Virus record (IMG/VR): IMGVR_UViG_3300047546_001428
Span: 1-20,255 of that record
DNA: 20,255 nt
From: a virus
Reading direction: 5' to 3' (one strand)
The translations under genes were made by a program, and so were the position numbers. Of this stretch, positions 1,278-17,140 are shown in pieces; positions within the stretch are counted from its first letter, which is position 1, and each line of letters begins with the position of its first letter. The notes beneath the pieces are model-generated. The model worked only from the letters and a program-made list of their open reading frames with translations, searched no databases and was not told the DNA's origin.

Positions 1278-1580
1278 ATGAATTACGAAGAATATTACTT
1301 GGTTTCTAAAAAGTTAGAGAGAATTGTAGAGTTGGCTAAACTGATTACTGGTACTCATTTGTTTAGAGTTTGTAAGTTAGCAGATGGATCTCAGAAGGGA
1401 ATGCAATGTACTTATGCTCAGATATCTTCTAAATTAGCTGTAATAGAAGAGGCTAGTTTTTTAGATTATCTTAAAGATAATATTGATATTGTTTCGCCTG
1501 AACTTATTCAGCAGATAGAAGTTTTGTTTGAGAATTCCGGCGCCAATATTTCCTCTAACCTAGATGATAACAATGTCTAA
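1278..1580 (+). CDS. Hypothetical protein, 100 aa, first gene of the late operon
   Basis: I do not recognise this protein. It starts MNYEEYYLVSKKLERIVELA after AGGGGA, which is 5 bases upstream of the ATG, so the start is reasonably firm. The sequence is mainly helical and mildly acidic, with no signal peptide, membrane segment or repeated motif; two cysteines (in FRVCK and MQCTY) are present. It is the first gene to the right of the divergent promoter region, and its 3' end overlaps the next gene, so the two are probably translated together. The position just ahead of a terminase-small-subunit-like gene suggests a packaging or head-associated role, but that rests on position only. Confidence 0.78.
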   Translation: MNYEEYYLVSKKLERIVELAKLITGTHLFRVCKLADGSQKGMQCTYAQISSKLAVIEEASFLDYLKDNIDIVSPELIQQIEVLFENSGANISSNLDDNNV

Positions 1581-2346
1581 GTCTTTAATGAAAACTACTA
1601 GTACTGATTTGGTTAAGACACAAGAAGAGTTAATTAGTAATCTTATGACAGTAGAAGATGATTACCTTAACTACTATAACTCTTTAACACCAGATAAAAA
1701 GAACCGTATTAGTAATTCAGTGAATGGTATACATAATGGGTTACAGGCTGTGGCCCCAATCATGTGTATGGGGCCACAGAAGTGTCCGTTTATAGAGAAG
1801 TGTCCTATACCTGATAGAGATTCTTGTGGGGAGCTGGTTTACGGCGCCAAGACTCTTTACCCTATAGGAAGAGAATGTATCTTAGAGAAATTCTTTATCA
1901 AACAAAAGATGGTTGATTACGTTAAACACTTAAATGTAGATCCTAATAATCCTATAGAAATGTCTATAGTAAATGAATTAGCACTTATAGATCTTTATAA
2001 GAATAGAGCCTTGATGATTATGTCTGTTGGAGATAAATCAAACCAAGGTAGAGATTTTATGAGAGTAGATATTATTGGGTTTAATGAGAATGGTGAGAAA
2101 GCAGAACAAGCTTCTTTGCACCCTGCTGTAGAAATGATAGATCGTTTAGAGAAGAGAAGAGAGAAGTGGTTAGATCGTTTGATGGAGACAAGGAAATCTA
2201 AAGCAGATTGGGTTGCAAAGATGGGCGGGAATAATTCTGAGTCTAAGATATTGGTAGAGATACAGAAGTTAAGAGAGGCTCTGAATACAGTAGATGAAGT
2301 TAAAGAACTTACATTAGATAGTGATGATAAAATACTAATTAAGTAG
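1564..2346 (+). CDS. Cysteine-rich protein, candidate terminase small subunit
   Basis: The 260-aa protein sits two genes upstream of TerL. Around residues 67-107 it has a cysteine cluster: MCMGPQKC, then C in IEKCPI, in DSCGE and in RECIL, a pattern able to bind zinc or an iron-sulphur centre. Near residues 185-210 there is HPAVEMIDRLEKRREKWLDR, which resembles the C-terminal helix of P27-like small terminases that typically starts with an N/H-P-A motif. From that and position I infer a small-terminase-type DNA-recognition role, with low certainty. No strong Shine-Dalgarno precedes either ATG; the internal ATG at 1573 (MSKSLMKTTS) is an equally likely start. The gene overlaps its upstream neighbour. 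A 10-bp perfect hairpin lies within it at 1748-1779. Confidence 0.62.
   Translation: MITMSKSLMKTTSTDLVKTQEELISNLMTVEDDYLNYYNSLTPDKKNRISNSVNGIHNGLQAVAPIMCMGPQKCPFIEKCPIPDRDSCGELVYGAKTLYPIGRECILEKFFIKQKMVDYVKHLNVDPNNPIEMSIVNELALIDLYKNRALMIMSVGDKSNQGRDFMRVDIIGFNENGEKAEQASLHPAVEMIDRLEKRREKWLDRLMETRKSKADWVAKMGGNNSESKILVEIQKLREALNTVDEVKELTLDSDDKILIK
1748..1779 (+). repeat. In-gene perfect 10-bp hairpin
   Basis: CTGTGGCCCC (1748-1757) and GGGGCCACAG (1770-1779) flank a 12-base loop inside the cysteine-rich gene. The stem is G+C-rich although the gene is AT-rich. No U-tract follows, so it is not a terminator. Confidence 0.6.
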
Positions 2347-2356
2347 GTTGTAGTAA

Positions 2357-5300
2357 ATGGATTGGAAGAGTCTATATTTACAAGCAGTTATTGCTGACAC
2401 CGAAACCTTTGGTCTCGAACGAGGCGTAGGTATGCAAGAGGCGTCTCTTTATAGAGTCGCCACTAAAGAGGTAAACCAGTATTTAATTGCGCCGAACTTA
2501 ACAATTGTAGAGCCCGCAAATAAAAACCAAGACTTCGTTAATTATTCTTCTAAAGCCAGTGATAAGCATAGAGTACACCCCGGCCTAAGAGAACTAGGCT
2601 CTGATGCTACATGGGCAGATGCAGTAAAAGCTCAGCTTCTAATGGAGAAAGGGAAAGAGAGCCAAACTCTTTTAGGGCTAACTATTGCTGAAATCAGAGG
2701 TATGTCTGATGATGATTTAAGAGAAGAAATGAGAAAGCGCCTACCCAAAGTTATGAAATGGGTAGAGGAAGGCAGGTATCCCTGGTTAGCAGATTTAGCT
2801 AATAGGCTTGCTAACAATCCCGGTAAAACAGTTAAAGATAACTGGAACGAAAGAACCGCACTAGCTGAAGCCAGAAAGATTGGTGCTGAAGTCGATGTAT
2901 TTAATATACATCGAGTAAAAATAGAAGATTTGTTTACTAACAATTCTAACTTTGCAAGAAAGTTAGGAGAAAGTGCAATCTGGATCGCTAACTCTAACTT
3001 CGAATCTAAGCAGTTAGGTGCAAAGCTAGCTGCTATGGAAGAAGCAGTAAGAGAGCAAGTAAGAATCGGCGCTATGACGAAAGCAGAGGCCGCCAAAAAA
3101 CTAAACGAAATGTCGCCCTTGCGACAAGTAATAACTGAAACCCCAACAGATGTTTCAGACTTATTTAGTGTAACTGGTAAAGAAGTAAACTTAGCACGTT
3201 ATAGAGGTTACTCTACAGGTGACTGGAGAGGCGTTTATAAAGCAATTCTAGAAAACACAAAAGCAGGTGATGTTCGAGACATTATTGATGTGGTTCGCGC
3301 GCAACAATCTTACCTGCAAAAAATGAATTTCATATCTGGTAAAGCTCCCAGTCAATTATCTATGGATATACAGGGAAGACTATACGGCTTTTCTATTGCT
3401 AAAAACGCAGATGAAGCTTTTAACTTTTTGACAAAGCCAGAGTTACATGCAGCCTGGGCAGACTCTTCGTTCACAGAGAACTTAGTTTTAAGAGAATCTT
3501 TACGTCAAACAGATGCACTAGATCAGGTAGAAAGACGTACAGCTCAAGGTCTTGAACTAATAGAGCAAGCTAAGAGAGGAGAGGGCGCCTTCTATTCAGC
3601 GATGAGATACGCCGCGGCCAAACAATCTCTAGACCAGTTACAAGAAGGTTCTGCAAGACAGAATATAGCTCGTGCTGCACTTGATCTCCTAAATGAAGGA
3701 GTTACATATCAAAGCGGAGGACATGAACTCGGCAGCAATAAACGATTACTAAGAAGCGGACTTATAGAAAAGATACCCTATGCAAGACCAGGAAAAAGAA
3801 GAGATTTTACAAACTTAGATAAAGTAGTAGAAGCAATATCTACGCGCCCCGACTATTCAGAAATAGATGTTCAACAAGTCTATAAAGAGATGCAAGAAGA
3901 CTTTGTAAATAAAGGGTTTATAGACGCGCAAAACAAAACAACAATTCAAAATAATTTAGACAGTTACCGAACACATCTAAGAAGCATTGTAGAAGGCGGC
4001 AATGAATACATAGAAGATCACTTCAAGAAAGTAGAAGCTTCTATGAGTACTAGAAAAGCAGAGTACATACGTTCAATAGAAGAGAACGTACCATCTCAAT
4101 TTAGAAAAGCAGAGAATTATGTTTCTCAAATACAAGATCTAAAAGCATTAAAAGGTAATGCAGGTAAGATACTAAAGGGGGCAGGCGCTCTTGCTGCAGG
4201 TTTAACTCTAGCAGGTTTAACTATAGGTGAAAGACACTCCTTCAAGAAAGAAAAAGAAGGCATTGATACAGTACGTACAATGAACTATGAGAAGTGGTTA
4301 AGTCTGCAACAAGAGTTTTCTAGTTTAGAGCAAGCAACAGGTACTGGTAGTGGTTTCCAAGAACAAGGTGTAGGGGCGGCCCAAAGACACCAGATGACAG
4401 ACTTCGGTTCTCCATACCAAGGACCTGTAGCTTCTAGTTTAATCTTTCAACATCAAGATCTATTAAACGAAAGAGAGAAGTATAATCGAAAAGCCTTCGG
4501 CGCCACACACTATGATCCACAGTCCAGTATAGGCAGTTATATGGCTGCCTTCGGCTTCAACAGGAACATAGGCATACTTACCTCTCTAAATGGATTTAAA
4601 AGCCATTATACGAAGTATACGATACCTTCTGACGGTCACTACGTAGAGACACAAGGATATGAAGGTTTAAGTAAAGGCACTCTGCTTAACGTAAACTTAT
4701 CTAATTATAAGTTAACTGCACAAGACGCAGACACTATTACCTTAGAAAAGAAAGGAGTTATTAACTCTATATCTTCCTTCTTTGGTTTCAGTTCACCTAT
4801 GAGTGTGCGTTTCTCAGGTATAGATGCTCCTGAGACTGCTCACGAGAATAGAGGTGCAATGCCTTTAGCAGAGAACTCTAAGGTAGCATTACAAGCAATG
4901 TTAAACGGTGGGGGTAATCTACAACTATTGGTAGATCCATCTAACATCACGTATGGTCGTACTGTAGGTTTCTTGTTCAAGGACGAGACTAACGTTAACT
5001 TAGAATTGGTTAGACAAGGTAAGGCTGCTTATCTTCCGTTCAGAGGCGGCCCAAGAAACTATTATAACCCTGCTATCTTTTCTAGAACAGAGAAATTAGC
5101 TCAAGGTTCTGAAAAGCAAATGTGGGGACAGGGCTACTACAAAGCATATAGAGATGTAGTAGCGTCTTCAGGTAGCACAATTACCTTTAACACTTTAGTT
5201 AATCCAGAAAAAGTAGCCAAGAATGCTTCACTAATGTCAGCTGTAAGTTTAATGAGAACAGCAGATGATATGGGGTTATATACTCCAGATATGGCAATGG

Positions 5301-5677
5301 AAGCAGCAGATATAGGTAGAAGATTAAAAGGATCTAACTTTCAAGATGACTATAAGAGGCCAATACTATTTAACCATACAAGTAAAGAAGGTGGAGCAGA
5401 ACTTGAACAGTTAAAATTTGAGACTGGCAAACTTATGCAAATGAGAGAGGGGAGTACTAGTAACAAGCTATCTAGAAAGATGGGATATGGAGATCTAGAT
5501 AAGTCGCTAGTCCTTGACAGTATGGGCTCGACAGGTTCAATCTTTAATAAGAGAAGATTAAACACTTACGAAACTTACGACGTAGATAAAGAAAGACGTA
5601 AACAGGAAGCAGCTATGCTTCAGAGAAATCAGTTAAAGCAAATGTTTAGTAGTCCAATTGGCCATTATAGGATGTAA
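2357..5677 (+). CDS. Dual nuclease: DnaQ-like exonuclease fused to staphylococcal-nuclease domain
   Basis: This 1106-aa protein carries two recognisable nuclease domains. N-terminal part: Exo I is IADTETFGL (D14, E16), Exo II resembles IANSNFESKQL (residues 210-220, with E216 where Asp is usual), and Exo III is HAAWADSSFTENL (H364, D369), the H-x4-D spacing of DEDDh exonucleases. C-terminal part, about 775-935: a staphylococcal-nuclease (SNase) domain with DADTITL (D792), VRFSGIDAPE (R818, D823, E826) and YGRTVGF (R868), which match the Asp21, Arg35, Asp40, Glu43 and Arg87 positions of the prototype with identical spacing in the 35-43 block. Between them are charged helical stretches and a hydrophobic Gly/Ala/Leu segment (606-624). 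It lies between the terminase-small-subunit candidate and TerL, where no such gene is usual. Likely role: virion-associated or head-module DNA processing, or host DNA degradation after ejection; both are inference. The SNase call is firm; the exonuclease call is good but not certain. Confidence 0.82.
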   Translation: MDWKSLYLQAVIADTETFGLERGVGMQEASLYRVATKEVNQYLIAPNLTIVEPANKNQDFVNYSSKASDKHRVHPGLRELGSDATWADAVKAQLLMEKGKESQTLLGLTIAEIRGMSDDDLREEMRKRLPKVMKWVEEGRYPWLADLANRLANNPGKTVKDNWNERTALAEARKIGAEVDVFNIHRVKIEDLFTNNSNFARKLGESAIWIANSNFESKQLGAKLAAMEEAVREQVRIGAMTKAEAAKKLNEMSPLRQVITETPTDVSDLFSVTGKEVNLARYRGYSTGDWRGVYKAILENTKAGDVRDIIDVVRAQQSYLQKMNFISGKAPSQLSMDIQGRLYGFSIAKNADEAFNFLTKPELHAAWADSSFTENLVLRESLRQTDALDQVERRTAQGLELIEQAKRGEGAFYSAMRYAAAKQSLDQLQEGSARQNIARAALDLLNEGVTYQSGGHELGSNKRLLRSGLIEKIPYARPGKRRDFTNLDKVVEAISTRPDYSEIDVQQVYKEMQEDFVNKGFIDAQNKTTIQNNLDSYRTHLRSIVEGGNEYIEDHFKKVEASMSTRKAEYIRSIEENVPSQFRKAENYVSQIQDLKALKGNAGKILKGAGALAAGLTLAGLTIGERHSFKKEKEGIDTVRTMNYEKWLSLQQEFSSLEQATGTGSGFQEQGVGAAQRHQMTDFGSPYQGPVASSLIFQHQDLLNEREKYNRKAFGATHYDPQSSIGSYMAAFGFNRNIGILTSLNGFKSHYTKYTIPSDGHYVETQGYEGLSKGTLLNVNLSNYKLTAQDADTITLEKKGVINSISSFFGFSSPMSVRFSGIDAPETAHENRGAMPLAENSKVALQAMLNGGGNLQLLVDPSNITYGRTVGFLFKDETNVNLELVRQGKAAYLPFRGGPRNYYNPAIFSRTEKLAQGSEKQMWGQGYYKAYRDVVASSGSTITFNTLVNPEKVAKNASLMSAVSLMRTADDMGLYTPDMAMEAADIGRRLKGSNFQDDYKRPILFNHTSKEGGAELEQLKFETGKLMQMREGSTSNKLSRKMGYGDLDKSLVLDSMGSTGSIFNKRRLNTYETYDVDKERRKQEAAMLQRNQLKQMFSSPIGHYRM
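2892..2914 (+). repeat. In-gene perfect 9-bp hairpin
   Basis: TCGATGTAT and ATACATCGA flank the loop TTAAT within the exonuclease part of the dual-nuclease gene. It has no U-tract and no reading-frame reason to exist. Confidence 0.45.
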
Positions 5678-5679
5678 GA

Positions 5680-6546
5680 ATGATTGAAGCTTTTAGAGAA
5701 TATTTAATGGGTGGTTTCAGAGGAAGTATGGGGTTTAACCCATTAACTGCTGCTGAACTCGCTGATACAACTTTTAAAAGTGGAGCAACCCCTACAAGTG
5801 GGAGTTTATTGCAATTAGGTCCTAAAGTATTTCACTTTAATGCAAATGATCCTTTTAAGATGCCTGAAATTGTTGGATCAGTTAAAAATTGGAAGATGTC
5901 TGCAGCTGGGTCAGCTTTTGCTGTTGGTTCAACAGCTTATATGGCTTATACCGGATATCAAGAGAATGGTGTATCAGGCTTAAAAGATGCTCTAGTATGG
6001 GACGTAGCAGTTAACTCTGCAGTTATGTCCTCTTACACTGATGGTCCCAATTTAACAAAAGAGCTTATGCCTGGTAGATTTACAATGACAGGGGTAGCAG
6101 CTAGACAAACTGGAGCAATAGGTACAGTAGGTAAGCTTGCTGGTGGATTTAAAACATTTGCTGGTGCTGGAATTGGAGCGAGTTTAGGACAAGAAGCTTT
6201 AGGTACTCCAGGAGCATTTGCAGGTGCATACTTAGGTGCCAGAATGGGCAGAGGTACTTCTAGCTTAGTTATTGCTGCTGGAGCAGCTTTTGCTTATGCT
6301 GGAAGCGAAGTAGTAAAGAAAGGTGGAGCAATTCTTAAAGCTGGTTATGTAAACCAACAGATGAGAAGAAGAATAGATACTGCGGGCTCAATGGCTAGCT
6401 TTATGACACAAAACGCATATACAGAGAGATCAAGAGCAGTACAAGCTATGCACAGATCTCACCTTAATGCTAGAAGTGCTTTAGGTGGAGAAGCCGGCTA
6501 CTTACATATGAATAGAGATTACTTCTCTAATTACAAGAGGTTTTGA
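5680..6546 (+). CDS. Gly/Ala-rich protein with hydrophobic segments, putative virion protein
   Basis: The family is not recognised. The 288-aa protein starts two bases after the dual-nuclease stop, with AGGATG upstream as a weak ribosome binding site. Three stretches are hydrophobic and rich in small residues: about 75-95 (AAGSAFAVGSTAYMAYTGY), 152-190 with repeated GxxxG/GxxxA spacing (GAGIGASLG, GAFAGAYLGARMG) and 193-208 (SLVIAAGAAFAYAG). Such glycine-zipper-like segments are common in membrane-inserting and pore-forming proteins, including phage ejection proteins. The C-terminus is basic (MRRRID, RSHLNARS). The stop overlaps the TerL start as TGATG, implying translational coupling. Role in DNA ejection or as an internal head protein is inference. 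Confidence 0.75.
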   Translation: MIEAFREYLMGGFRGSMGFNPLTAAELADTTFKSGATPTSGSLLQLGPKVFHFNANDPFKMPEIVGSVKNWKMSAAGSAFAVGSTAYMAYTGYQENGVSGLKDALVWDVAVNSAVMSSYTDGPNLTKELMPGRFTMTGVAARQTGAIGTVGKLAGGFKTFAGAGIGASLGQEALGTPGAFAGAYLGARMGRGTSSLVIAAGAAFAYAGSEVVKKGGAILKAGYVNQQMRRRIDTAGSMASFMTQNAYTERSRAVQAMHRSHLNARSALGGEAGYLHMNRDYFSNYKRF

Positions 6547-8747
6547 TGTTAGAGGAAATTAAAAAGTTGCTTTATATAGAGAATGAGTACGGGTATCAAC
6601 ATCAGAATCCAGAAGCAGAGCTACCTGAAGAAGTAGTACAAAGCTTAATTGAGAAGTACGATATCAAGAAGCAGGTACACAGAACTTGTATCAACTGCCA
6701 AGCAAGGCAGTTGATAAAGTACGGCAAGAACGCTATTAAGTGTAGTTACATTGCAGAGGGGCTTCCAAAAGGAAGTTTATCTAAAGCAAAAGAGATAGCG
6801 TTACAGTCAGATATACCGTTTGAAAGAGCGGCACAAATACTTCTTTCTACCATTGATCCTGTTGCTTGGGCAGAACTAATGTTCGGCTTTACAGATAAAG
6901 ATGAACAATGGAAGTTAAGGAATTATCAAAAAGAACAATTAAGATGTAGTGCTCGTAGAATGGTAGTAAGAGAAGGTCGCCGTGCAGGTAAGACCTTTGC
7001 TATGGCTTTAAAGCTTCTCTATTATGCTTTTAACTTAAAGGTAAATAAAGGAAGGAACTCTCAAGGCAAAGATATAAAGTCTGGCCCAAGTATATTGATA
7101 GTTACTCCTTATCAGTCACAGATATCTAACATCTTTGCAGAAATAGAGTCTCTTCTAAAGAGAAATGAAGAACTAGTATCTTTTTGTACTACGGATTCTG
7201 GCGGCAACCTCTATGTAAAGACTCCTTTTTTTAGAATGGAGTTTGAGTTCCCAGATGGTAGCAAAGCAAAGATCTCAGGCTTCGTATCAGGAGTAGGAGT
7301 TAAAGAAGATGGATCTGGCGGTGGTGTTATGCGCGGTCAGTCTGCTGATATTGTTTACTTAGATGAAATGGATATGATTCCAGAAGAAGTATTAGAAGCA
7401 GTAGTAACTCCTATTTTGCTTACTCGTCCAGATACAATCATGTTAGCTACTTCGACACCTATTGGTGAAAAAGGTAAGTTCTACGAATGGTGTACTGAAA
7501 GGCCAGAATATAAAGAAGATTACTACCCTTCTACAGTACTTCCACACTGGAGTCAGATTAAAGAAGAGTTAGAAACAGAATCTACTAAAGATGGATTCGT
7601 TGCAGAATATATGGCAGCATTCCCTGATAGCACAGACGGTGTATTCAAAATGTCTTGGATCAAGAATGCAAGAGTTGAGTATGACTACGACTCTACAAAT
7701 GATCCAATGTATGTAAAGAAGACAACTGGTATTTCTGATGCAGGAGACTTAATTAAAAGTATAGGGATAGACTGGAACAAAAATGCAGGTACAGAATTCT
7801 ATGTTGTAGGTTATTCAGCAGCGAAGGGTTGCTGGGTAACACTTGAAGCTATCAACGTTCCTGCTTCTGAGTACTCTGCTAAGAAATGGGCAGAAGAAGT
7901 AATTAGACTTAACTATAAGTGGAAGCCGAGCTATATCTATGCAGACGAAGGTTACGGCCATACAATTATTGAAGATCTTAAGCTGCTTTCTCATAACTTA
8001 AAAAGTAAAAGAAACAAGACTCAAATGGATCAAGAGACAGCTCAATTAGAAGAAAGGTTGGTCTCGTTTAACTTCTCCAGAAATGTAGAACTTAAAAGTC
8101 CTATTAACGGCGAGACTATTGTTAAATCAGGTAAGCATTATCTAGTAGAAAACATTATCAGAATTATGGAAGACGGAAAGTTTATCTATTCAAATTCAGA
8201 TGATAACTTAACAAAGCAGTTGCAGAACTACAAGATTATTAAAAGAAATGCAGCTACTAGCAAACCTGTATATGGTATGGAAAAGCAGTCTATCGGAGAC
8301 CATAGACTGGATGCTGCTATGTTAGCCTTGGCCGCACTAACCTTAGAAGAATCAGTTTATTCAAAGAACAAAATACCTTACTCAACTCCAGGTTTAGTTT
8401 CTAAAGAAAAAGAAGAGAGCTATAACTGGGGTTCTGTACATGAAGATGCAAATAAAAGTGTAAGTGCATTACGTAGAGCTGGTTTACCTGGTGCTTTAGA
8501 AGTATTAAAAATTATAAGAGGTAATGGTAGTGAAGAAGAAGATAGAGCAATAAAGCAAAAGTATAGACAGCAAGGACTTTGGAAAACGGAAGAATCTCCT
8601 ACTTCTAGAAGCTTGTTTGGAAATGGTAAAAAAGATTCTAAACCAAGTATACTTGAATCAATTAATAAACAAGAGAATCAGTTCTCTACTCCTTTACGTT
8701 CTGGTCCAAGAAGATCAAATAGAGGAAGTAGAAGCTGGAACAAATAG
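6546..8747 (+). CDS. terL: Terminase large subunit (packaging ATPase-nuclease)
   Basis: The protein powers DNA translocation into the prohead and cuts the concatemer. The ATPase domain has a Walker A GRRAGKT (144-150), Walker B IVYLDEMD (D273, E274) and the coupling motif ATST (301-304). The RNase-H-like nuclease domain shows three acidic sites: GIDWN (D409), IYADEG (D467) and GDHRLDA (D585/D589). Residues 48-66 carry C-x2-C and a further Cys, a possible half zinc ribbon not typical of terminases. At 733 aa it is longer than most, with a Ser/Arg/Gly-rich tail. The ATG at 6546 is preferred over the in-frame TTG one codon earlier because AGAGG lies 5 bases before it and it forms a TGATG overlap with the upstream gene. 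Confidence 0.96.
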   Translation: MLEEIKKLLYIENEYGYQHQNPEAELPEEVVQSLIEKYDIKKQVHRTCINCQARQLIKYGKNAIKCSYIAEGLPKGSLSKAKEIALQSDIPFERAAQILLSTIDPVAWAELMFGFTDKDEQWKLRNYQKEQLRCSARRMVVREGRRAGKTFAMALKLLYYAFNLKVNKGRNSQGKDIKSGPSILIVTPYQSQISNIFAEIESLLKRNEELVSFCTTDSGGNLYVKTPFFRMEFEFPDGSKAKISGFVSGVGVKEDGSGGGVMRGQSADIVYLDEMDMIPEEVLEAVVTPILLTRPDTIMLATSTPIGEKGKFYEWCTERPEYKEDYYPSTVLPHWSQIKEELETESTKDGFVAEYMAAFPDSTDGVFKMSWIKNARVEYDYDSTNDPMYVKKTTGISDAGDLIKSIGIDWNKNAGTEFYVVGYSAAKGCWVTLEAINVPASEYSAKKWAEEVIRLNYKWKPSYIYADEGYGHTIIEDLKLLSHNLKSKRNKTQMDQETAQLEERLVSFNFSRNVELKSPINGETIVKSGKHYLVENIIRIMEDGKFIYSNSDDNLTKQLQNYKIIKRNAATSKPVYGMEKQSIGDHRLDAAMLALAALTLEESVYSKNKIPYSTPGLVSKEKEESYNWGSVHEDANKSVSALRRAGLPGALEVLKIIRGNGSEEEDRAIKQKYRQQGLWKTEESPTSRSLFGNGKKDSKPSILESINKQENQFSTPLRSGPRRSNRGSRSWNK

Positions 8748-8762
8748 TTTAAGGAGATAGTT

Positions 8763-9680
8763 ATGTCAAGACAAGCAAATTTAATACGTAGAGCATTAAA
8801 TATGGCAAGTGAGCCAGTACAAGCACCAGCAGTAACTGTAAGAGTTCCATCAATGCGATATCCTGATATGAAATGGGTAGAAGATAATTATCAGGCGCAC
8901 TTCCGTCGTAATGATCCAGCTTTCGCAAGAGAATACGAGCGAGAACGGACTATTTTTGCAGAAAAAAAAGGAAGGGTTTTGCCATCACGATCAACGGCCA
9001 GCACCCCAAAAGGAAGTGTACCATCAATAAATACTAGGCCTGCTCCATCTGAAGTCAGACAGATGCAGCAGAAAAGACAAGTTGAACAGCGTTTATTTGA
9101 AATGGAAGTAGACAGTGGAAATCTAAATCCTGAAATGGCTGCAGTTCAACGGAAATTAGAATTCTATGAAAAAAGAGAAGCTTCTATTGGTAGAAATCAA
9201 TCAAATATTCCTCTTCAAATTGTTCAAGAGAAAATTAAACAAACAAAAGCTGCAACTTCAAAATCAACGACGAGTTCTCCAAGCAATATGCCAGTTGCAG
9301 GATCTCAAGTCGGGTCTACACAGGCAGCAGATATAGCTGGATACAATTTAGATAGAAATGCTATGCATACTGCATTAACTGCAGGAGCAGGCGGATTAAT
9401 AGGTGGTGTTACTTCTTATGCTACTGGTGGAGAATTTGGTCAAGGAGCAATGGCTGGTACTATGGGTGGCTTAGCTATACGTGGAGGCGGACATATTTTG
9501 AATTCAAATAAACAGTTAGCAGGGAAAATGTCTGAAGGGTTACAAAGCGCTACAAGCGCTTTCGTTGACAACAACAGAGCAGCTATGTTAGCAGGAGGTG
9601 GATTAACAGGCTTTGTTTTTGGCGGTAAACGCGAAAGTAAAAAGCGAGGCTTTAACAGTTCAAGAGGTAACGGTTTCTAA
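8763..9680 (+). CDS. Putative virion protein with glycine-zipper-like C-terminal region
   Basis: The family is not recognised. Start is firm: AAGGAGAT lies just upstream of the ATG. The N-terminal two thirds of this 305-aa protein are basic, Gln/Arg-rich and largely helical or disordered (EYERERTIFAEKKGR, RQMQQKRQVEQRLFEME), with a Ser/Thr-rich linker near 165-185. The C-terminal third is hydrophobic and glycine-rich: GAGGLIGGVTSYATGG and GAMAGTMGGLAIRGGG (about 207-245), then AMLAGGGLTGFVFGG before a basic tail. It resembles the product of 5680-6546 in its glycine-rich membrane-like segments. It lies just after TerL and overlaps the next gene as TAATG. A role in membrane interaction during ejection is speculation from composition. 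Confidence 0.75.
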   Translation: MSRQANLIRRALNMASEPVQAPAVTVRVPSMRYPDMKWVEDNYQAHFRRNDPAFAREYERERTIFAEKKGRVLPSRSTASTPKGSVPSINTRPAPSEVRQMQQKRQVEQRLFEMEVDSGNLNPEMAAVQRKLEFYEKREASIGRNQSNIPLQIVQEKIKQTKAATSKSTTSSPSNMPVAGSQVGSTQAADIAGYNLDRNAMHTALTAGAGGLIGGVTSYATGGEFGQGAMAGTMGGLAIRGGGHILNSNKQLAGKMSEGLQSATSAFVDNNRAAMLAGGGLTGFVFGGKRESKKRGFNSSRGNGF

Positions 9681-10123
9681 TGGCAACTCAGCAACTCATA
9701 TTCTTAAATGAAGAGTATCAACCTTTCAGTAGTGATCCTTTAAGATCTTTTCATGATGGTCATCGTGGAGACTCACATGAACAACTCTTCTATTTAAGAA
9801 ACAAAGACTCATCTGTTTACTACACTAATGTAGAACTAGTACCACAATTTACTGGACCTTATAATGATTCAGGAGAATTTGGTAATACTGGATGGGGCGT
9901 AAAACTAATATATGGTAAACGAAGACCTACTGAAACAGAGTGGGATTTAATACGTTCAGGTGATGGTATACAGATACCAGATATAGGTTCAAAAGAAGCC
10001 GCAGATACTTTTACTAATCATCCAATATGGATAAGAATTTACTGTCCAGGTAATGAACCAGCTAAGATTAAAACAAATATGCAGATTAAAGTTTCATACT
10101 TTATAAGAAAGGTTGGAGCGTAA
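9680..10123 (+). CDS. Hypothetical beta-rich structural protein, 147 aa
   Basis: No family is recognised. The ATG overlaps the previous stop (TAATG), so translation is probably coupled. The protein is rich in aromatic and beta-forming stretches (YYTNVELVPQFTGPY, GWGVKLIYGK, PIWIRIYCPGNEPA, MQIKVSYFIRKVG), without charged helices, membrane segments or signal peptide. That composition fits a small beta-sandwich virion component such as a head decoration or connector protein. It lies between TerL and the portal with other unknown genes of the same transcript. The start is placed by the overlap and by colinearity; no better ATG is available. Confidence 0.75.
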   Translation: MATQQLIFLNEEYQPFSSDPLRSFHDGHRGDSHEQLFYLRNKDSSVYYTNVELVPQFTGPYNDSGEFGNTGWGVKLIYGKRRPTETEWDLIRSGDGIQIPDIGSKEAADTFTNHPIWIRIYCPGNEPAKIKTNMQIKVSYFIRKVGA

Positions 10124-10683
10124 TGTCTAACAAAGACTTTAATAAAATCTTCTCAGATATATTCTCTGGAGAACTCTCCGACAATACAGAGAATCTAACA
10201 AGAGCAGTAACTGTTGAAATGGACAGAATTAAAGAAACTGCCAGACAAACATTACTTGAAAAACAATCAGAGATTAATAAAGTTCAAATAGGTAAGGGCA
10301 ACAGACCACAATCTGTTCAAAAACCTTTAACTAAAGAAGAGTCCACATTAGTAGATGAAAAGATTAAAAGACTTAGAAGCAAGTTAGATTCTATTTCACG
10401 CAAGTTAGAGTTTGCTGAGAAATCTATTATTTCTCAGCAAGAAACTGACAAGGACCAGCCTAGCTTCACTTTTGATATTTCAGATAAACCTAGACTTAGA
10501 AAATTTGCTCGTATCATTTTTGGAGAACGACTTAACCAAATAACTTTTGCTCAATACAAAGCAATGCTTGAAGAGAAACAAAGATTAGAAAAAGAAGATG
10601 GTAATAGTATGTTCGAGCAAGAAGAAAATGATAATGTATCTGGAGATGCAAAGGACTTTACCTCTTTGTTAAAGAAGAAGTGA
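10123..10683 (+). CDS. Hypothetical coiled-coil protein, 186 aa
   Basis: The product is not recognised. It is highly charged and helical. Residues 20-60 and 75-105 have heptad-like spacing (VDEKIKRLRSKLDSISRKLEFAEKS is split across a hairpin-encoding stretch), predicting coiled coils; the tail is acidic and ends in Lys (LLKKK). No membrane segment is seen. The start overlaps the upstream stop as TAATG. Composition would suit a scaffold-like or adaptor protein, but a better scaffold candidate lies next to the capsid gene. A 12-bp perfect inverted repeat lies inside the gene at 10412-10440. Confidence 0.74.
   Translation: MSNKDFNKIFSDIFSGELSDNTENLTRAVTVEMDRIKETARQTLLEKQSEINKVQIGKGNRPQSVQKPLTKEESTLVDEKIKRLRSKLDSISRKLEFAEKSIISQQETDKDQPSFTFDISDKPRLRKFARIIFGERLNQITFAQYKAMLEEKQRLEKEDGNSMFEQEENDNVSGDAKDFTSLLKKK
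10412..10440 (+). repeat. In-gene perfect 12-bp hairpin
   Basis: TTGCTGAGAAAT (10412-10423) and ATTTCTCAGCAA (10429-10440) flank the loop CTATT. It is the longest perfect stem in the window and lies wholly inside the coiled-coil gene. No terminator-type U-tract follows. Confidence 0.65.
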
Positions 10684-10686
10684 TAT

Positions 10687-10998
10687 ATGGGATTTCTTAA
10701 AGACACAGCAAAGAATTATGCTCCTGACGAAGAAGAAAGTAGTAAAGATCCAAAAGCTTTAGAAGAAGTTTATCAAAGACTCTTCATGAAGATCGGGCGC
10801 GACTTTATTACTAGAGAAGACTTTGTTTCAGTTATAGAGCAAATTATCTCTGTAATAGATCCAGAAGGAATAGAGAACATTGATCCCTGGGAAATGGGCG
10901 GGACAATGAATAAAGCAGCAGACTACAGAGATTTGATTCGGCAAGGTAAATCTTCTAAGATGCAGTATCTCGATCTAATAGATCTAAGTGATGACTAA
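10687..10998 (+). CDS. Hypothetical acidic protein, 103 aa
   Basis: The family is not recognised. The 103-aa product is acidic and mainly helical, with an N-terminal charged stretch (DEEESSKDPKALEEVY), a hydrophobic helix (FVSVIEQIISVIDPEG) and the C-terminus YLDLIDLSDD. There is no membrane segment. The gene starts three bases after the upstream stop and its own stop overlaps the next ATG as TAATG, so it is an integral part of the operon. The ribosome binding site is weak, again pointing to translational coupling. Size and position would suit a head-completion or chaperone-like factor, but nothing in the sequence proves this. Confidence 0.72.
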   Translation: MGFLKDTAKNYAPDEEESSKDPKALEEVYQRLFMKIGRDFITREDFVSVIEQIISVIDPEGIENIDPWEMGGTMNKAADYRDLIRQGKSSKMQYLDLIDLSDD

Positions 10999-12794
10999 TG
11001 GCACGAATTAAAGAAGAGCACTATCGTTATGCATATCTTTCAGACTTAACTACAGAGTACAGAAAGGCTGCAATAGAATCAGGTACTCGAAAGGGTACCG
11101 TTGCTGCTATGTGGCAGCCAGTAAAAGGAGTAAGCTTTGTTGTTAACTCAACAAATAATATGCTCGATTCTTTTGATCGTTTTTCTAGAGATGCTAATGA
11201 CGCTACTAGAAAGAACATAGAAAGAGAAGCAAATAGAAATAAAACTGCTCAGAGCAGTTCTGAGAGTACAACTACTAGTGGATGTGATGTTAATCAGGGT
11301 CCAGAGAAGCAAACATTTAAAACACTACTAAGAGATGTTGGCGACTCTTCTAGAGATGCGAGCCTCAACTATACAATTACTCCTGGTAATGACGGACCAT
11401 TACAGCAGTTACTTGGTAAGAATCCAGATAATATTCTTGGTCTTGATGAAGACATCTTACGTTACTTACAAGAGTGCTGGGACTGTGATCTTAAGATTCA
11501 GTTTGACTGGCAGTTAAAACCTCTAAACCTTTTAATAGGTTTAGAGGGATTCCTTGATGATATCGAAGATCTAATTAACATGATTAACGATATGTTAGAC
11601 CCTGCTAAATTCTTGGCCAACTTCTGTGACTTCTTTGATGGATTTAGTTGGATATGTCCACCTGATCTAGTTGCGCTTTTACTTGCGCTAGCAATGCTTA
11701 TTAAAAAGTATATGATGCTAGCTATCAATATTAATTTAGATTGGACCGCATTACTGGGTCCATTAATTAAATGGATTATTGATGCAATAGCATCTTTCCT
11801 TCAACAGATTGTCCAGATTATTGTAGCCCCATTAGATTGTGTAATAGGGGCATTGCAATCAATACAAAGCGTAATTGATGCTGCTGATGAACTTGGAGAT
11901 ACAGCTATATCTGCTGCTAGTTATTTAAGTTCAGGTATGGGAATGTTTGATGGAGAAACAAATCCAACATCTTCAATTATAGCTTCTAAGGGTAATGATA
12001 GATGGCAAAGCTATTATGATGAAGAAAAAGAAAGAGAGAGCATCCCTAAGCAGTTTAAATCTGTTAACGAAGAGATCAAAACAAATCCCAATGCAAGCTT
12101 TGAAGATACAGACTTTGCAGCTAAAACTGACGCTATTAGAGAAACTCAAAGAGATGGATTCCAAGCTTTAGGATTTGGACTTGCAAGAAAGGTAGTTGAT
12201 GACAGCGCTAAATTTTCACAGAGTGTAGAGAAGAATAAATTTAATATACCAACAGGTATCAATATAGGCGTTAGCGATACCTTTGATTCTTTCTTTGCTA
12301 AGAGAAAGAAAGATAAAGAGCAAGGTAAAGCAGTATTTGATTTATCTAAGATTAGCGTATTTAAAACTTCTATTCTTGCAGTACAAACTGCAAGACAATA
12401 TATTGTTGATTTCTTCAATCAAATATTGTTTGCATTAACTTCTTTGAATGCAATGTTCAATGCAAAGCTTTCTTTGAATGTAGAGTCTTTAGGACTGATA
12501 CTTCTTATTATTGATTTAATTAAACTAATAAAGATGTTGATAGAACTAAAACATGCAAACTGTCAGAATTTAAAGGACAATCCAGAACTAGTATTAAGAG
12601 CTCTTGAAAGACAATACCCTAATATGACTTTTGAGTTGACAGATAATGGTACGATTGAAAGAACTGACACAGATCTCTATACTATTAAAGTTCCATTAGA
12701 TTCTTGCGATACCAATAGAACTTCAGAAGAAGTTTCAAGAAGCAGGAAGCTTAAAGAATCTGTACAAAAAATCTCTGGACTTAAACTCAGATAG
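10998..12794 (+). CDS. Large protein with multiple hydrophobic segments, putative virion membrane-active protein
   Basis: The family is not recognised. The 598-aa protein has a charged N-terminal part with a Ser/Thr-rich linker (about 85-100), then long hydrophobic stretches at about 221-245 (PPDLVALLLALAMLIKKYMM) and 251-290 (LLGPLIKWIIDAIASFL onward), and another hydrophobic region at about 470-520 (LGLILLIIDLIKLIKMLIEL). Between them lies a polar, Lys/Glu-rich segment. Cysteines are grouped around the first block (ECWDCD, NFCDF, WICPP), so disulphides or metal binding are possible. There is no N-terminal signal peptide. Coded between TerL and portal, it is more likely a virion component than a lysis protein. 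Its TAATG overlap couples it to the preceding gene. Membrane insertion at infection is inference. Confidence 0.77.
   Translation: MARIKEEHYRYAYLSDLTTEYRKAAIESGTRKGTVAAMWQPVKGVSFVVNSTNNMLDSFDRFSRDANDATRKNIEREANRNKTAQSSSESTTTSGCDVNQGPEKQTFKTLLRDVGDSSRDASLNYTITPGNDGPLQQLLGKNPDNILGLDEDILRYLQECWDCDLKIQFDWQLKPLNLLIGLEGFLDDIEDLINMINDMLDPAKFLANFCDFFDGFSWICPPDLVALLLALAMLIKKYMMLAININLDWTALLGPLIKWIIDAIASFLQQIVQIIVAPLDCVIGALQSIQSVIDAADELGDTAISAASYLSSGMGMFDGETNPTSSIIASKGNDRWQSYYDEEKERESIPKQFKSVNEEIKTNPNASFEDTDFAAKTDAIRETQRDGFQALGFGLARKVVDDSAKFSQSVEKNKFNIPTGINIGVSDTFDSFFAKRKKDKEQGKAVFDLSKISVFKTSILAVQTARQYIVDFFNQILFALTSLNAMFNAKLSLNVESLGLILLIIDLIKLIKMLIELKHANCQNLKDNPELVLRALERQYPNMTFELTDNGTIERTDTDLYTIKVPLDSCDTNRTSEEVSRSRKLKESVQKISGLKLR
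11520..11547 (+). repeat. In-gene perfect 10-bp hairpin
   Basis: CCTCTAAACC and GGTTTAGAGG flank an 8-base AT loop inside the large hydrophobic protein gene. A second, bulged stem-loop follows in the same gene at 11826-11851 (GCCCC+ATTA with TAAT+GGGGC). Confidence 0.55.
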
Positions 12795-12802
12795 GTAATG
12801 AA

Positions 12803-14236
12803 ATGAAATTAGAACTCTTACAGTTAGCTTTATCTATTACTGACGAAGCTCAACCCACTGGCTATCAAAAGAACTTTGTTGATGCTAACAAACCTAGCGT
12901 TATTAAAAAAGTTAAAGATAGAGGTATCTCTTATGCAGAGAGACATAGAGGTAGTTGGTATAAACCAGAATATGATTTAGAAGAAATTTCTATTGCTCAA
13001 GATACTGACTCATACATCTATAGAGCTTTAAAGAAAAAGAACAATCGCTTTCTAATCTCTGGATGTGAGATCGTTGGTTTTAATGAAGAGTACGTTAACT
13101 ATGTAAAGAGAAGAGTTTCTGAAATAGAGACCGCCCAAAACAAACCTTTCTACATTCTTCTAACAGAAACTGCTTTTGACTTAGACAGATACTCTAACTG
13201 TATGTGGGTTAAAGCCAGAGACCCAGAGGTCTCTTCTGGAAAGAAGAGAACTCTTTATACTGGTAAAGAAATTGATCCAGTAGCAGCTTACTTCATTCTT
13301 CCTTTTGAAACACTTTACTTCAAAAGCAAAATGAATGGAGAAATAAAAAAGGTTCTACAAGAGACACCTAGTGGAGAAACAAAAGAGTTTTTCCCAGAAG
13401 ATCTCATTCACTTCTACGACAACAAGAAGCCTGGATTCACTATGGGGACTCCAGCGCTTTTACCAGTACTACAAGATGTTTCTCTTCTAAGAAGATTAGA
13501 AGAGAATGTAGAAGAGCTAATAGAGTCAAATCTATTCCCTCTGTTCCATTACACTGTAGGTACTGATGAGTATCCAGAAAGATATAGCCCAGATGGCTAT
13601 AAAGAGACAGAGATCGTTAGAAAGTCTATAGACTATATGCCTGCAGGTGGTGTTTATGTCTCCGATCATAGACACAAGATCAGCGCTATTGGATCTCAGG
13701 GTAAAGCATTACAAATAGAATCCTACCTTGACTACTTTAAGAAAAGAGTATTCTCTGGTTTGGGAGTGTCTTCTGTAGACATGGGTGAAAGCGATACAGC
13801 TAATAGAGCAACTGCTAACGTTCTTTCTAAGAGTGCAATACAAGATGTAGAAGCACTACAAGAAATAATTAGAAACTTTGTTGAGTTCTACGTATTTAAA
13901 GAACTGCTTTTAGAAGGTGGATATGAATTTGATCTTCACGATCCAATGAAGAAAGTAAGTATTAAATTTGGTTCCGTAGATAAAGAGCAGCAAATAAAGA
14001 TTGAGAATCAGGCAACCCAATTATTTAATAACAACTTACTAACCAAAAACGAAGCAAGAAAAAGAATTGGTGAGAAACCATTTAGTCAAGAAGATGAGCT
14101 TCAGACTAATTTCGAATTACACCAAAAGCCATTAGCTTTGTTAAAATTTCCAGGTGCTTCTATTGACGGCTCAGTAGAAAATACAAGTATGCCTGAGAAT
14201 CAATTCGGTAAGAATACAAGTCCTAACTTAGAGTAA
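12803..14236 (+). CDS. Portal protein
   Basis: The 477-aa product forms the dodecameric ring at the unique vertex through which DNA enters and leaves. Family signs are the central block LIHFYDNKKPGFTMGTPALL (201-220), followed by PVLQDVSLLRRLEENVEELI, the typical portal pattern in which a clip/stem region leads to long crown helices. Others are the segment KKRVFSGLGVSSVDMGES (313-330) with the phage-portal xGxP/S-type loop and the helix carrying NVLSKSAIQDVEALQEIIR. Length is usual for the family. An AGGTAATGAA stretch precedes the start; the gene begins 8 bases after its neighbour. Position between TerL and protease supports the call. Confidence 0.93.
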   Translation: MKLELLQLALSITDEAQPTGYQKNFVDANKPSVIKKVKDRGISYAERHRGSWYKPEYDLEEISIAQDTDSYIYRALKKKNNRFLISGCEIVGFNEEYVNYVKRRVSEIETAQNKPFYILLTETAFDLDRYSNCMWVKARDPEVSSGKKRTLYTGKEIDPVAAYFILPFETLYFKSKMNGEIKKVLQETPSGETKEFFPEDLIHFYDNKKPGFTMGTPALLPVLQDVSLLRRLEENVEELIESNLFPLFHYTVGTDEYPERYSPDGYKETEIVRKSIDYMPAGGVYVSDHRHKISAIGSQGKALQIESYLDYFKKRVFSGLGVSSVDMGESDTANRATANVLSKSAIQDVEALQEIIRNFVEFYVFKELLLEGGYEFDLHDPMKKVSIKFGSVDKEQQIKIENQATQLFNNNLLTKNEARKRIGEKPFSQEDELQTNFELHQKPLALLKFPGASIDGSVENTSMPENQFGKNTSPNLE

Positions 14237-16221: not shown

Positions 16222-17140
16222 GAAAGGAAGCAAAGTAGCAGACACTGAAAATGAATCTGTTACTGATACTGAAGTAATTGATGAAGCTGCTGTTGAACCC
16301 ACTGAAGAAGAACAGTTAGAGCATGATGCTTCTTTTGATGAAGCATCATCTGATACTGAAAATTCTAGTGAAGAGCAGCAGTCAGACAATTCAGAAGAAA
16401 AGGAAGAAGAAGTTAACTTTGATAAAGAGTTATCAGCTGCAGAAAGAGAGAAGCTTAAAGAATCTGTGTTTTGCGGTCCAGAGAGAAGCTATCCTGTACC
16501 AGACAAAACTCATGCAGTAGCAGCTCTTTCAAGAGCTAAACAGTTTGCTTCTGATGAACTTTATACAAAGATTAAAAACTGTGTGTGTAGGAAGTCTACA
16601 CAAAACGGTTGGGACCTACCCTCCTGTTCAGAAGATTCTTGGAGTCCAGAGCTAATCAAAGAAGCTCAAGATAAAGAGTCTCTTATTATGGGATGGATTA
16701 GTGAAGATGAATACAACGCAAATCTGCAAGCAGCAACGGCTTATAACGAAGCATTAGATAAAATTGCTAAGCTTGAAGAGAAACTAAATGAAGTTCTCTC
16801 ACATGTAATTGCATCTAGTGATAAAAAAATTGAAGAAAAAAGTGAGACAAAGCTTGCAGATAAACTACAATGGTTTGATAGTATTTCAAATGTAAAAGAA
16901 AACAACACAAACCAAGTATCCAAAAAGAACGTTGTAATAGATAACCCTTCAGTTGCTAGTTCAGATGATGGAGCTTCTCCATTAGAAGGAACTAGTGTTA
17001 AAAGTTTAGGATCTTTTGAAAGAAAGATTGTAGATAAATATAAACAAATCTTGAGCTCAGATGGGGAAGTCGCTGCAGAGAAATACTTTTTAAGCAATAA
17101 GCAGTATTTGGCACGCAACTTCCATCCAAAGAATTACTAA
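16214..17140 (+). CDS. Putative scaffold / head-assembly protein
   Basis: The 308-aa protein lies between the protease and the capsid genes, where scaffolds usually are. Residues 8-75 are strongly acidic and disordered. Residues about 73-127 hold a compact module: LSAAEREKLKESVFCGPERS, YPVPDKTHAVAALSRAKQF and IKNCVCRK; I associate the FCGP-x-RS-x-PVPD-x-x-H pattern with a small module of unknown function in phage capsid and scaffold proteins. Residues 168-210 form a coiled coil (DKIAKLEEKLNEVLSHVI). The C-terminus has a basic/aromatic tail (ARNFHPKNY) of the sort that contacts capsid protein. The ATG at 16214 is chosen because AAAGGA lies upstream and it overlaps the protease stop by 8 bases; the frame stays open further upstream without a good start. 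Confidence 0.74.
   Translation: MFKKGSKVADTENESVTDTEVIDEAAVEPTEEEQLEHDASFDEASSDTENSSEEQQSDNSEEKEEEVNFDKELSAAEREKLKESVFCGPERSYPVPDKTHAVAALSRAKQFASDELYTKIKNCVCRKSTQNGWDLPSCSEDSWSPELIKEAQDKESLIMGWISEDEYNANLQAATAYNEALDKIAKLEEKLNEVLSHVIASSDKKIEEKSETKLADKLQWFDSISNVKENNTNQVSKKNVVIDNPSVASSDDGASPLEGTSVKSLGSFERKIVDKYKQILSSDGEVAAEKYFLSNKQYLARNFHPKNY
16323..16349 (+). repeat. In-gene perfect 10-bp hairpin
   Basis: ATGATGCTTC and GAAGCATCAT flank the loop TTTTGAT in the acidic N-terminal part of the scaffold-like gene. Confidence 0.55.

Follow-up and report, generated by a model that had tools for sequence, protein, structure and literature searches.

The DNA considered here is a 20,255-base IMG/VR virus record (IMGVR_UViG_3300047546_001428), referred to below as the window, which is the whole available sequence of its phage and ends just after the capsid gene. 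Its plus strand, on which all features described below lie, encodes in order N260, A, B, TerL, C, D147, E186, F103, G, portal, protease/scaffold, h460 and capsid, these letters and similar designations being labels assigned in the present analysis. Adjacent genes overlap or almost touch, and the last four were identified through homology to Acinetobacter phage ME3 and Bacillus phage KLEB27-3. The original prediction had singled out three proteins of this region, B (5680..6546; 288 amino acids, aa), C (8763..9680; 305 aa) and G (10998..12794; 598 aa), as a possible set of membrane-active internal virion proteins that would accompany the DNA into the host. The three open reading frames (ORFs) were confirmed at these coordinates and lie, as had been proposed, among head genes, with TerL (6543..8747) and the portal gene (12803..14236) adjacent and a nuclease fusion, A (2357..5677; 1106 aa), upstream. 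The proposed lack of signal peptides likewise holds, the best 15-residue Kyte-Doolittle mean within the first 40 residues being 0.29 for B, 0.57 for C and 0.19 for G. The grouping itself had to be redrawn: B and C appear to group with A through a glycine/alanine-rich (Gly/Ala) segment and a conserved C-terminal tail, and G is a different, cysteine-bearing protein beside the portal. The Gly/Ala segment of A, of the kind found in B and C, was not listed in the original prediction.

Relatives were found in cultured phages and in metagenomic collections. Among cultured phages, TerL or portal matches over much of the length were obtained in ME3, KLEB27-3 and Moorella phage MTATph1; the portal was also matched weakly by six haloarchaeal virus records, and tblastn returned no cultured-phage match for A or G. 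IMG/VR yielded 51 loci via TerL, one via G and 62 via the B family (many on contigs already fetched), and the GTDB genomes yielded one contig of a Gammaproteobacteria metagenome-assembled genome, matched through B. Iterated profile searches recovered every cassette gene in most loci of sufficient length. Of 70 loci examined for gene order, 18 were set aside because they shared over 60% of the 5-mers of TerL, or of G where TerL was lacking, which left 52 non-redundant ones. TerL was the query for loci L007-L057, and the B tail for most of L059-L109; the presence of these two families is therefore partly by construction, and gene order and the presence of all other families are independent of how the loci were retrieved.

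Strand and order agreed wherever two neighbouring families were both found in the 52 non-redundant loci. This was the case for N260-A in 41/41 loci, A-B in 48/48, B-TerL in 51/51, TerL-C in 42/42, C-D in 38/38, D-E in 41/41, E-F in 38/38, F-G in 38/38 and portal-protease in 31/31, and G and portal lie at most 1.5 kilobases (kb) apart in 32 of 35 loci and about 2.2 kb apart in the remaining three. Such an arrangement is a fixed packaging and head module, and the conserved, tight linkage of B, C and G with each other and with the nuclease, another element of the original prediction, is borne out in up to 52 loci. The fixed order N260-A-B-TerL-C-D-E-F-G-portal indicates that these genes are head-linked and probably late. 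Homologues of N260, B, TerL, portal, protease, h460 and capsid follow one another in ME3 as they do in the window, with expectation values (E) of 6e-34 for TerL and 2e-50 for portal. Judged from these homologies, the window derives from a large phage of the lineage of Acinetobacter phage ME3 and 0305phi8-36. Tail sheath genes are seen in ME3 and KLEB27-3, and the window stops short of tail genes.

Protein A combines a DEDDh-type exonuclease, a Gly/Ala segment, a TDFGSPYQGP motif, a staphylococcal nuclease (SNase) domain and a C-terminal tail. The exonuclease region (2357..3646) has invariant D14, E16, T17, D308, H364 and D369, with F-E/D at positions 215-216. The DEDDh motifs DxE, NxxF(D/E) and HxxxxD occur in this order in all 18 sequences compared, four distant ones included; D14, E16, T17, F215, D308, H364 and D369 are present in 18/18 and N212 in at least 90%. 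Profile comparison with the PDB lends modest support to this assignment (PolC-type exonuclease, E 0.0067; epsilon subunit, E 0.19), and the PHROG family 'DNA polymerase exonuclease subunit' matches the ME3 protein ME3_11 (E 5e-5) and the A protein of locus L106 (E 5e-4); Pfam gave no match for this region in the window protein and only RNase_T at E 0.039 for ME3_11. The SNase domain (4718..5128), by comparison, has a complete active site (D790/D792, R818, D823, E826, R868) with invariant active-site columns, is recognised as PF00565 in 30/30 A proteins (window E 3.6e-12, 47 bits against a cut-off of 21) and matches thermonuclease in the PDB at E 5e-21. The most hydrophobic segment of A, ILKGAGALAAGLTLAGLTI (aa 605-623, 4169..4225; Kyte-Doolittle 1.58), precedes the TDFGSPYQGP motif (aa 681-690, 4397..4426), and in 34 of the 35 motif-bearing proteins (40 examined) the hydrophobic peak falls 44-96 residues ahead of this motif.

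The enzymatic content of A appears to vary among relatives. In the distant loci L102, L104, L106 and L107 the TDFG motif occurs in two to three copies, as repeated GxAxxxRxxxTDFGSxYxG units with the enzyme regions lying between or after the copies, as if the motif were a reusable joint between cargo domains. SNase is the enzyme found in the clade of the window. The A protein of L107 lacks SNase and carries instead a Cas4-like PD-(D/E)XK region (PHROG E 1.5e-9) followed by an HExxH motif. That of L106 has HExxH too, together with a kinase-like region whose Pfam Pkinase match (E 0.027) falls below the cut-off and which gave no significant PDB match when compared alone; the HExxH and kinase readings in these two proteins are at motif level only. 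Searches for further relatives of the L106 and L107 variants returned only these two proteins themselves. A DxE(T/S)-type exonuclease motif is present in ME3_11 and in the L109 protein, in which no second enzyme was recognised. In KLEB27-3 gp006 neither the exonuclease motif nor a second enzyme was recognised, and the Gly/Ala segment and an ending, IGHHKM, are present. Profile probabilities against A are weak for both ME3_11 (4.5%) and gp006 (3.5%); ME3_11 is tentatively taken as an A homologue from its position and exonuclease motif, and gp006, equally tentatively, from its position and a 13-residue tail match. As read from these sequences, the enzyme domains of A are polymorphic among relatives, in the pattern of delivered effectors. 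A has at least two effector-type domains and is encoded among portal and terminase genes, the combination that characterises polyvalent proteins; domains specific to that class (ArdC-N, LPD and others) were absent from the Pfam matches of 30 A proteins, and no polyvalent-specific Pfam domain was found in A of L102, L104, L106, L107 and L109 or in ME3_11.

The pairing in A of two nucleases around one membrane-type segment would also suit superinfection exclusion or host shut-off, in which a late, membrane-tethered dual nuclease and its partners destroy incoming or host DNA at the inner membrane and are not part of the virion; membrane proteins that block the entry of rival DNA are well known (P22 SieA; PMC10883804, in part). 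Such genes, however, are usually accessory and variable, whereas this cassette keeps an invariant order and invariant tails in association with packaging genes, and we consider this explanation quite improbable.

Proteins B and C are both Gly/Ala-rich and end in conserved tails. The Gly/Ala-rich helices of B (6160..6255) contain glycines 166, 170, 175, 178, 182 and 186, each present in at least 90% of 36 sequences, and C has two Gly-rich stretches, the first at about aa 204-244 (9372..9494; GGLIGGVTSYATGGEFGQGAMAGTMGGLAIRGGG) and the second at about aa 272-287 (9576..9623). Clustered small-xxx-small residue pairs reach a median of 10 per 45 residues in B and C, against 0-5 in other families, and exceed 99% of own-sequence shuffles (100 each) in 13/41 B and 14/40 C proteins, compared to only 0-3 members in each of twelve other families. 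A membrane-strength segment, defined as a 19-residue Kyte-Doolittle mean of at least 1.6 and counted over families including redundant loci, is reached by 19/52 B and 3/50 C proteins; among controls, 7/55 TerL, 8/26 h460, 0/41 portal and 0/24 capsid proteins reach the same value. The long hydrophobic or glycine-zipper-like stretches that the original prediction saw in all three proteins are therefore not one common feature: only G is of membrane strength (39/42), B and C being Gly/Ala-rich and mildly hydrophobic, and a single membrane class for B, C and G was rejected on hydropathy. Paralogy of B and C was also rejected (profile comparison probability 1.2%), despite the presence of Gly/Ala stretches and tails in both. 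KLEB27-3 gp007 is tentatively related to C (profile probability 31%, E 5e-4).

The tail of A is SPIGHYRM in the window (5651..5674; family SPIGHHRM) and is found with a loose pattern in 43/48 non-redundant loci; that of B, TMRxRAVQAMxKSHLNARSALGxEA...HMNRxYFSxYRR (6406..6543), in 50/51; and that of C, RGFNSSRGNGF (9645..9677; family RGFNxxRGNRF), in 38/39. The patterns were written after the alignments had been seen. Among the 1294 ORFs of at least 100 aa in the loci, the B tail pattern has 64 matches and the C tail pattern 53, with none outside the B and C families. With a Gly/Ala segment and a conserved C-terminal tail in each of the three proteins, A looks as if it belongs with B and C.

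In distant relatives, a fourth small Gly/Ala-rich protein encoded between N260 and TerL ends in GATGDLVFALHNxRxG or a near variant; its bearers include KLEB27-3 gp008, ORFs at 7884-9176 of L102 and 8313-8924 of L109, MTATph1 CDS0251 and others. A DNA pattern for the core of this tail retrieved 19 IMG/VR stretches, 16 of which have an ORF bearing the peptide at most 8 residues from the stop (those of L115 and L126 being the same protein). Fifteen of these 16 ORFs lie close to relatives of N260, A, B, TerL or portal, the exception being L114. Of the other three stretches, L118 and L128 have cassette relatives and no ORF fitting the pattern in the piece, with a near match in L118 (ARGDLVFALHNLRHGG), and the L125 piece has neither. 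The tailed small proteins beside TerL in KLEB27-3 and MTATph1, where the candidate cassette members are gp006-gp009 (gp009 being B) and CDS0248-0253, respectively, indicate that the set reaches phages of Gram-positive hosts.

Two further endings were observed in distant loci. A small protein after N260 has a GVPFI/GIPFV-type tail (L113 8937-9281, L124 941-1285, L127 9526-10125, L130 4075-4386), and in several loci the last small protein ahead of TerL ends in SNxQLY plus a few residues; these are possible additional address tags.

One of the related small proteins (L106 8418-9428) has a weak PHROG 'holin' match (E 0.0038), and in ME3 membrane proteins, a peptidoglycan-binding protein and a lysozyme are encoded a few genes upstream, which would be compatible with B, C and their small relatives acting in lysis as holins or antiholins. 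We regard this as very improbable: the B homologue ME3_12 is not one of the putative membrane genes beside the ME3 lysozyme, B and C are long, mildly hydrophobic and tailed, and three or more consecutive holins would be unusual.

Protein G is of another kind. It is a hydrophobic helical protein with an N-terminal coiled coil and without a tail of the A/B/C type. Membrane-strength stretches occur in 39 of 42 family members (2.19 on average; three in the window protein). The three correspond to aa 225-243 and 271-289 (11670..11864; Kyte-Doolittle 2.09 and 1.87), within helices 221-243 and 249-313 of the AlphaFold2 model, and to aa 497-515 (12486..12542; Kyte-Doolittle 2.26), within model helix 495-516. 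C160, C163, C220, C281 and G254 are invariant, and C210, C522 and C570 nearly so. ME3_18, which occupies the equivalent place in ME3, aligns over this cysteine region (hhalign probability 89%) with equal cysteine spacings (CxxC, the later cysteines being 10 and 61 residues apart). No G homologue was found by the searches made in KLEB27-3 or MTATph1, both of which keep B-type proteins. G is a separate hydrophobic neighbour of the portal, and we consider it more likely to act in assembly or as a gate, linked to the portal or to the membrane. That G alone is membrane-active, as a portal-linked gate or pilot, with B and C structured head or neck proteins whose Gly/Ala helices pack against each other, would agree with the fact that only G passes the hydrophobicity threshold consistently (39/42, against 19/52 B and 3/50 C) and with the confident N-terminal fold of B. 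As G is missing by these searches from two phages that retain B-type proteins, however, it cannot be the shared core of the cassette, and this arrangement appears unlikely.

Family and fold searches gave few leads on B, C and G. A PHROG scan admitting E values up to 1 gave nothing for B, whereas C matched one unnamed family (E 0.54) and G a tape-measure family (E 0.011); none of the three matched a PHROG ejection-protein family at this threshold, a weak negative, since such families diverge fast, and PHROGs and Pfam assigned no family to B, C or G at useful scores. The AlphaFold2 model of B (predicted local distance difference test, pLDDT, 75.9; predicted template modelling score, pTM, 0.63) comprises a small N-terminal domain, a long helix, Gly/Ala-rich helices (147-174 and 176-192) and a poorly placed tail, residues 1-120 having a pLDDT of about 90. 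It had no PDB match at E at or below 0.001, a second comparison giving at best Z 4.2 (root-mean-square deviation, rmsd, 4.5 over 52 aligned residues), and among BFVD models it matched one uncharacterised phage protein (E 9e-7) and no named protein. The model of G is of low confidence (pLDDT 59.9, pTM 0.32), helical except for a small C-terminal sheet, and matches only long-helix and coiled-coil proteins, the best being a chemoreceptor (Z 7.8, rmsd 31, 205 aligned). Confident folds resembling soluble enzymes, which would speak against membrane-active proteins, were thus seen for neither B nor G, and the original prediction stands on this count, the test being a weak one given the low confidence for G and models of B and G only. 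Profiles of B, C and G compared with PDB sequences gave weak matches, several of them to membrane proteins (SlyB for B, E 0.066; haemolysin BL L1 for C, E 0.018), which probably reflect composition. A prohead-protease cleavage motif shared with the capsid was considered and dropped, as no clear site is present at the capsid N-terminus. The literature searched, judged by titles and the openings of abstracts, holds no description of the cassette; the B, C and G families and the cassette are real and little described.

Taken together, we tentatively favor a reading in which A, B and C are internal, ejected virion proteins, A being a polymorphic cargo, B and C its helpers and the tails head-sorting tags. 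A would be a cargo enzyme whose N-terminal DEDDh exonuclease and C-terminal SNase are joined by a membrane-entering Gly/Ala segment, and B and C would be small Gly/Ala-rich helpers. The conserved, mostly basic tails of all three would act as address tags directing them into the procapsid via the portal, the scaffold or the packaging complex. On infection the three proteins would leave with the DNA or ahead of it; B, C and the Gly/Ala segment of A would insert in the cytoplasmic membrane and allow A and the DNA to pass, and A, once delivered, would attack host or rival nucleic acid. We infer head location, ejection, membrane insertion, tag function and nuclease target alike from the head-gene setting, the absence of signal peptides, the Gly/Ala membrane-type segments, the conservation of the tails on variable bodies, and the exchange of domains in the partner enzyme, as in delivered effectors. 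Three precedents, each taken from part of its source, make the proposed steps plausible: five basic C-terminal residues of T7 gp16, a protein that inserts into liposomes, are needed for infectivity (PMC8954989); a DNase effector passes the target inner membrane through a glycine zipper (PMC10240207); and giant contractile-tailed phages carry ejected head proteins (PMC5694885).

Several observations weigh against the ejection of A, B and C. On the Kyte-Doolittle scale B and C are only mildly hydrophobic. When the Gly/Ala stretch alone is shuffled, only 2/41 B and 0/40 C proteins remain at p of at most 0.05, so that there is no spacing signal beyond composition, and Pfam glycine-zipper families (PF13488, PF05433 and others) match weakly, in 1/36 B (E 0.00086) and 1/28 C (E 0.047). 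The term 'glycine-zipper-like' of the original prediction is therefore valid for B and C in the sense of Gly/Ala clustering and conserved glycine columns (G166, G170, G178, G182 and G186 in B) and not in that of spacing; GxxxG periodicity, which vanishes in this control, was dropped as evidence. ME3 and KLEB27-3 encode contractile sheaths, and phages of that type usually deliver DNA without a separate ejectosome (PMC8954989, in part). Two active nucleases beside the phage's own DNA would have to stay inactive. Virion proteomics of a near relative was not found in the literature, nor any virion link for A, B, C or G. The KLEB27-3 record labels gp017, gp018, gp021, gp022, gp031 and others as 'structural protein' and gp006-gp009 as 'hypothetical'; if these labels derive from mass spectrometry, the homologues were not seen in the virion. 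Finally, linkage to TerL and N260 is as strict as linkage to the portal, which fits a packaging role, and the position beside TerL agrees with packaging factors equally well.

These last points bear on a strong rival explanation, though one that we judge somewhat unlikely, in which the proteins remain in the cell as membrane-bound factors for packaging or assembly: procapsid, portal and terminase would be docked by B, C and G on the cytoplasmic side of the inner membrane, where T4 proheads start, A would trim or clear DNA at the site of packaging, and the tails would bind TerL, N260 or portal. In keeping with such factors, all loci examined place the genes in the N260-TerL and TerL-portal intervals, only a few bases apart. 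The hydrophobicity of G, the highest of these proteins, directly ahead of the portal, the nuclease content of A and the absence of a 'structural' label on the KLEB27-3 homologues also agree with them. That distant A proteins have a Cas4-like region and, apparently, HExxH and kinase-like regions in place of SNase is, however, unexpected of a packaging nuclease and typical of effectors. Furthermore, KLEB27-3 gp006 keeps the A-like tail through its 13-residue match and has no recognised enzyme, so that a trimming activity cannot be essential.

Extending the ejection of A, B and C beyond the relatives of the window, it is possible, if doubtful, that large phages of Gram-negative and Gram-positive hosts share a delivery cassette at TerL. 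Its small Gly/Ala-rich proteins would each be sorted by a tag of their own (RGFNxxRGNRF, SHLNARSALGxEA, GATGDLVFALHNxRxG or SPIGHHRM). They would accompany a multi-enzyme cargo of exchangeable content, made up of exonuclease with SNase, of a Cas4-like nuclease, or of zincin-like or kinase-like regions, and a Gly/Ala segment would take this cargo through the inner membrane, like type VI effectors. How proteins, and perhaps DNA, of contractile-tailed large phages pass the last membrane is poorly understood, work on ejection proteins having dealt almost entirely with short-tailed phages, and a conserved, tagged set beside the terminase would provide a concrete gene list, testable peptide tags and candidate head-loading signals. 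A set that proved to remain intracellular would instead suggest that packaging is membrane-bound across a wide range of phages.

N260 (1564..2346), a small protein at the left end of the cassette, is present in 41/52 non-redundant loci and keeps cysteines C68, C74, C80 and C105 in at least 80% of 31 sequences; it could be terminase-related or a metal-binding protein. From ME3 through Moorella phage MTATph1 no other left neighbour of the cassette is as constant, and the N260 homologue is named an RNA methyltransferase in the ME3 record, a label that gets no support in the present data. Between C and G lie the conserved D147 (9680..10123; 42/52 loci), E186 (10123..10683; 41/52 loci), a probable coiled coil with only weak coiled-coil Pfam matches, and F103 (10687..10998; 38/52 loci). 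TerL has a TTG start, overlaps B and is assigned by phrog_2 (E 4e-30) and Pfam Terminase_6N, and the portal by phrog_9232 (E 1e-48). Enlarged TerL ORFs of 1086-1114 aa occur in L056, L057 and L096, and another in L108 (2242-5109) that reads like an intein within the ATPase part; one A protein of the family also has a weak Intein_splicing match. The protease/scaffold region (14296-17140) comprises two overlapping ORFs in different frames (14296-16221 and 16121-17140), spanned by one ORF in many relatives (e.g. L015, L016 and L029), and may reflect a nested or split gene or an erroneous frame in the record. Positions 1-1000 of the window have a G+C content of 0.48 with negative skew, and the next 16 kb one of 0.33-0.41.

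Internal ejected proteins and multi-enzyme injected proteins are already known kinds. T7 gp14, gp15 and gp16 and P22 gp7, gp16 and gp20 are, like the cassette proteins, helical, head-gene-linked and without signal peptides, with membrane-type segments, and the basic C-terminal end that T7 gp16 needs is akin to the cassette tails (PMC8954989, in part). Unlike these systems, the cassette, known here from its genes alone, has a dual nuclease, a strict TerL link and contractile-tailed relatives. Capsid-targeting sequences of phage T4 are N-terminal, whereas the proposed tags of the cassette are C-terminal, and no homologous proteins were recognised between the cassette and either the SPN3US/phiKZ group or T4. 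The likeness lies in the delivery, as both the SPN3US/phiKZ group and T4, with Alt and internal proteins, are large contractile-tailed phages that send head proteins with the DNA (PMC5694885, in part). Polyvalent proteins resemble A in carrying several enzymes per polypeptide that vary among relatives and in being encoded amid terminase and portal genes (Iyer et al. 2017, PMC5512222, in part). In contrast to them, A is without a polyvalent-specific Pfam domain and has its own Gly/Ala segment and tail, and the main text of PMC5512222 names neither SNase nor staphylococcal nuclease. The type VI secretion system effector Tde1 is similar to A in joining a nuclease to a Gly-rich, membrane-permeabilising segment for passage across the inner membrane, its GxxxG copies being N-terminal and experimentally required, whereas the predicted segment of A is central and Gly/Ala-rich (PMC10240207, in part). 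The window also resembles the lineage of Bacillus phage 0305phi8-36 and Acinetobacter phage ME3 through TerL, portal, protease and capsid homology to ME3 as well as gene order, the ME3 record itself citing homologies to 0305phi8-36.

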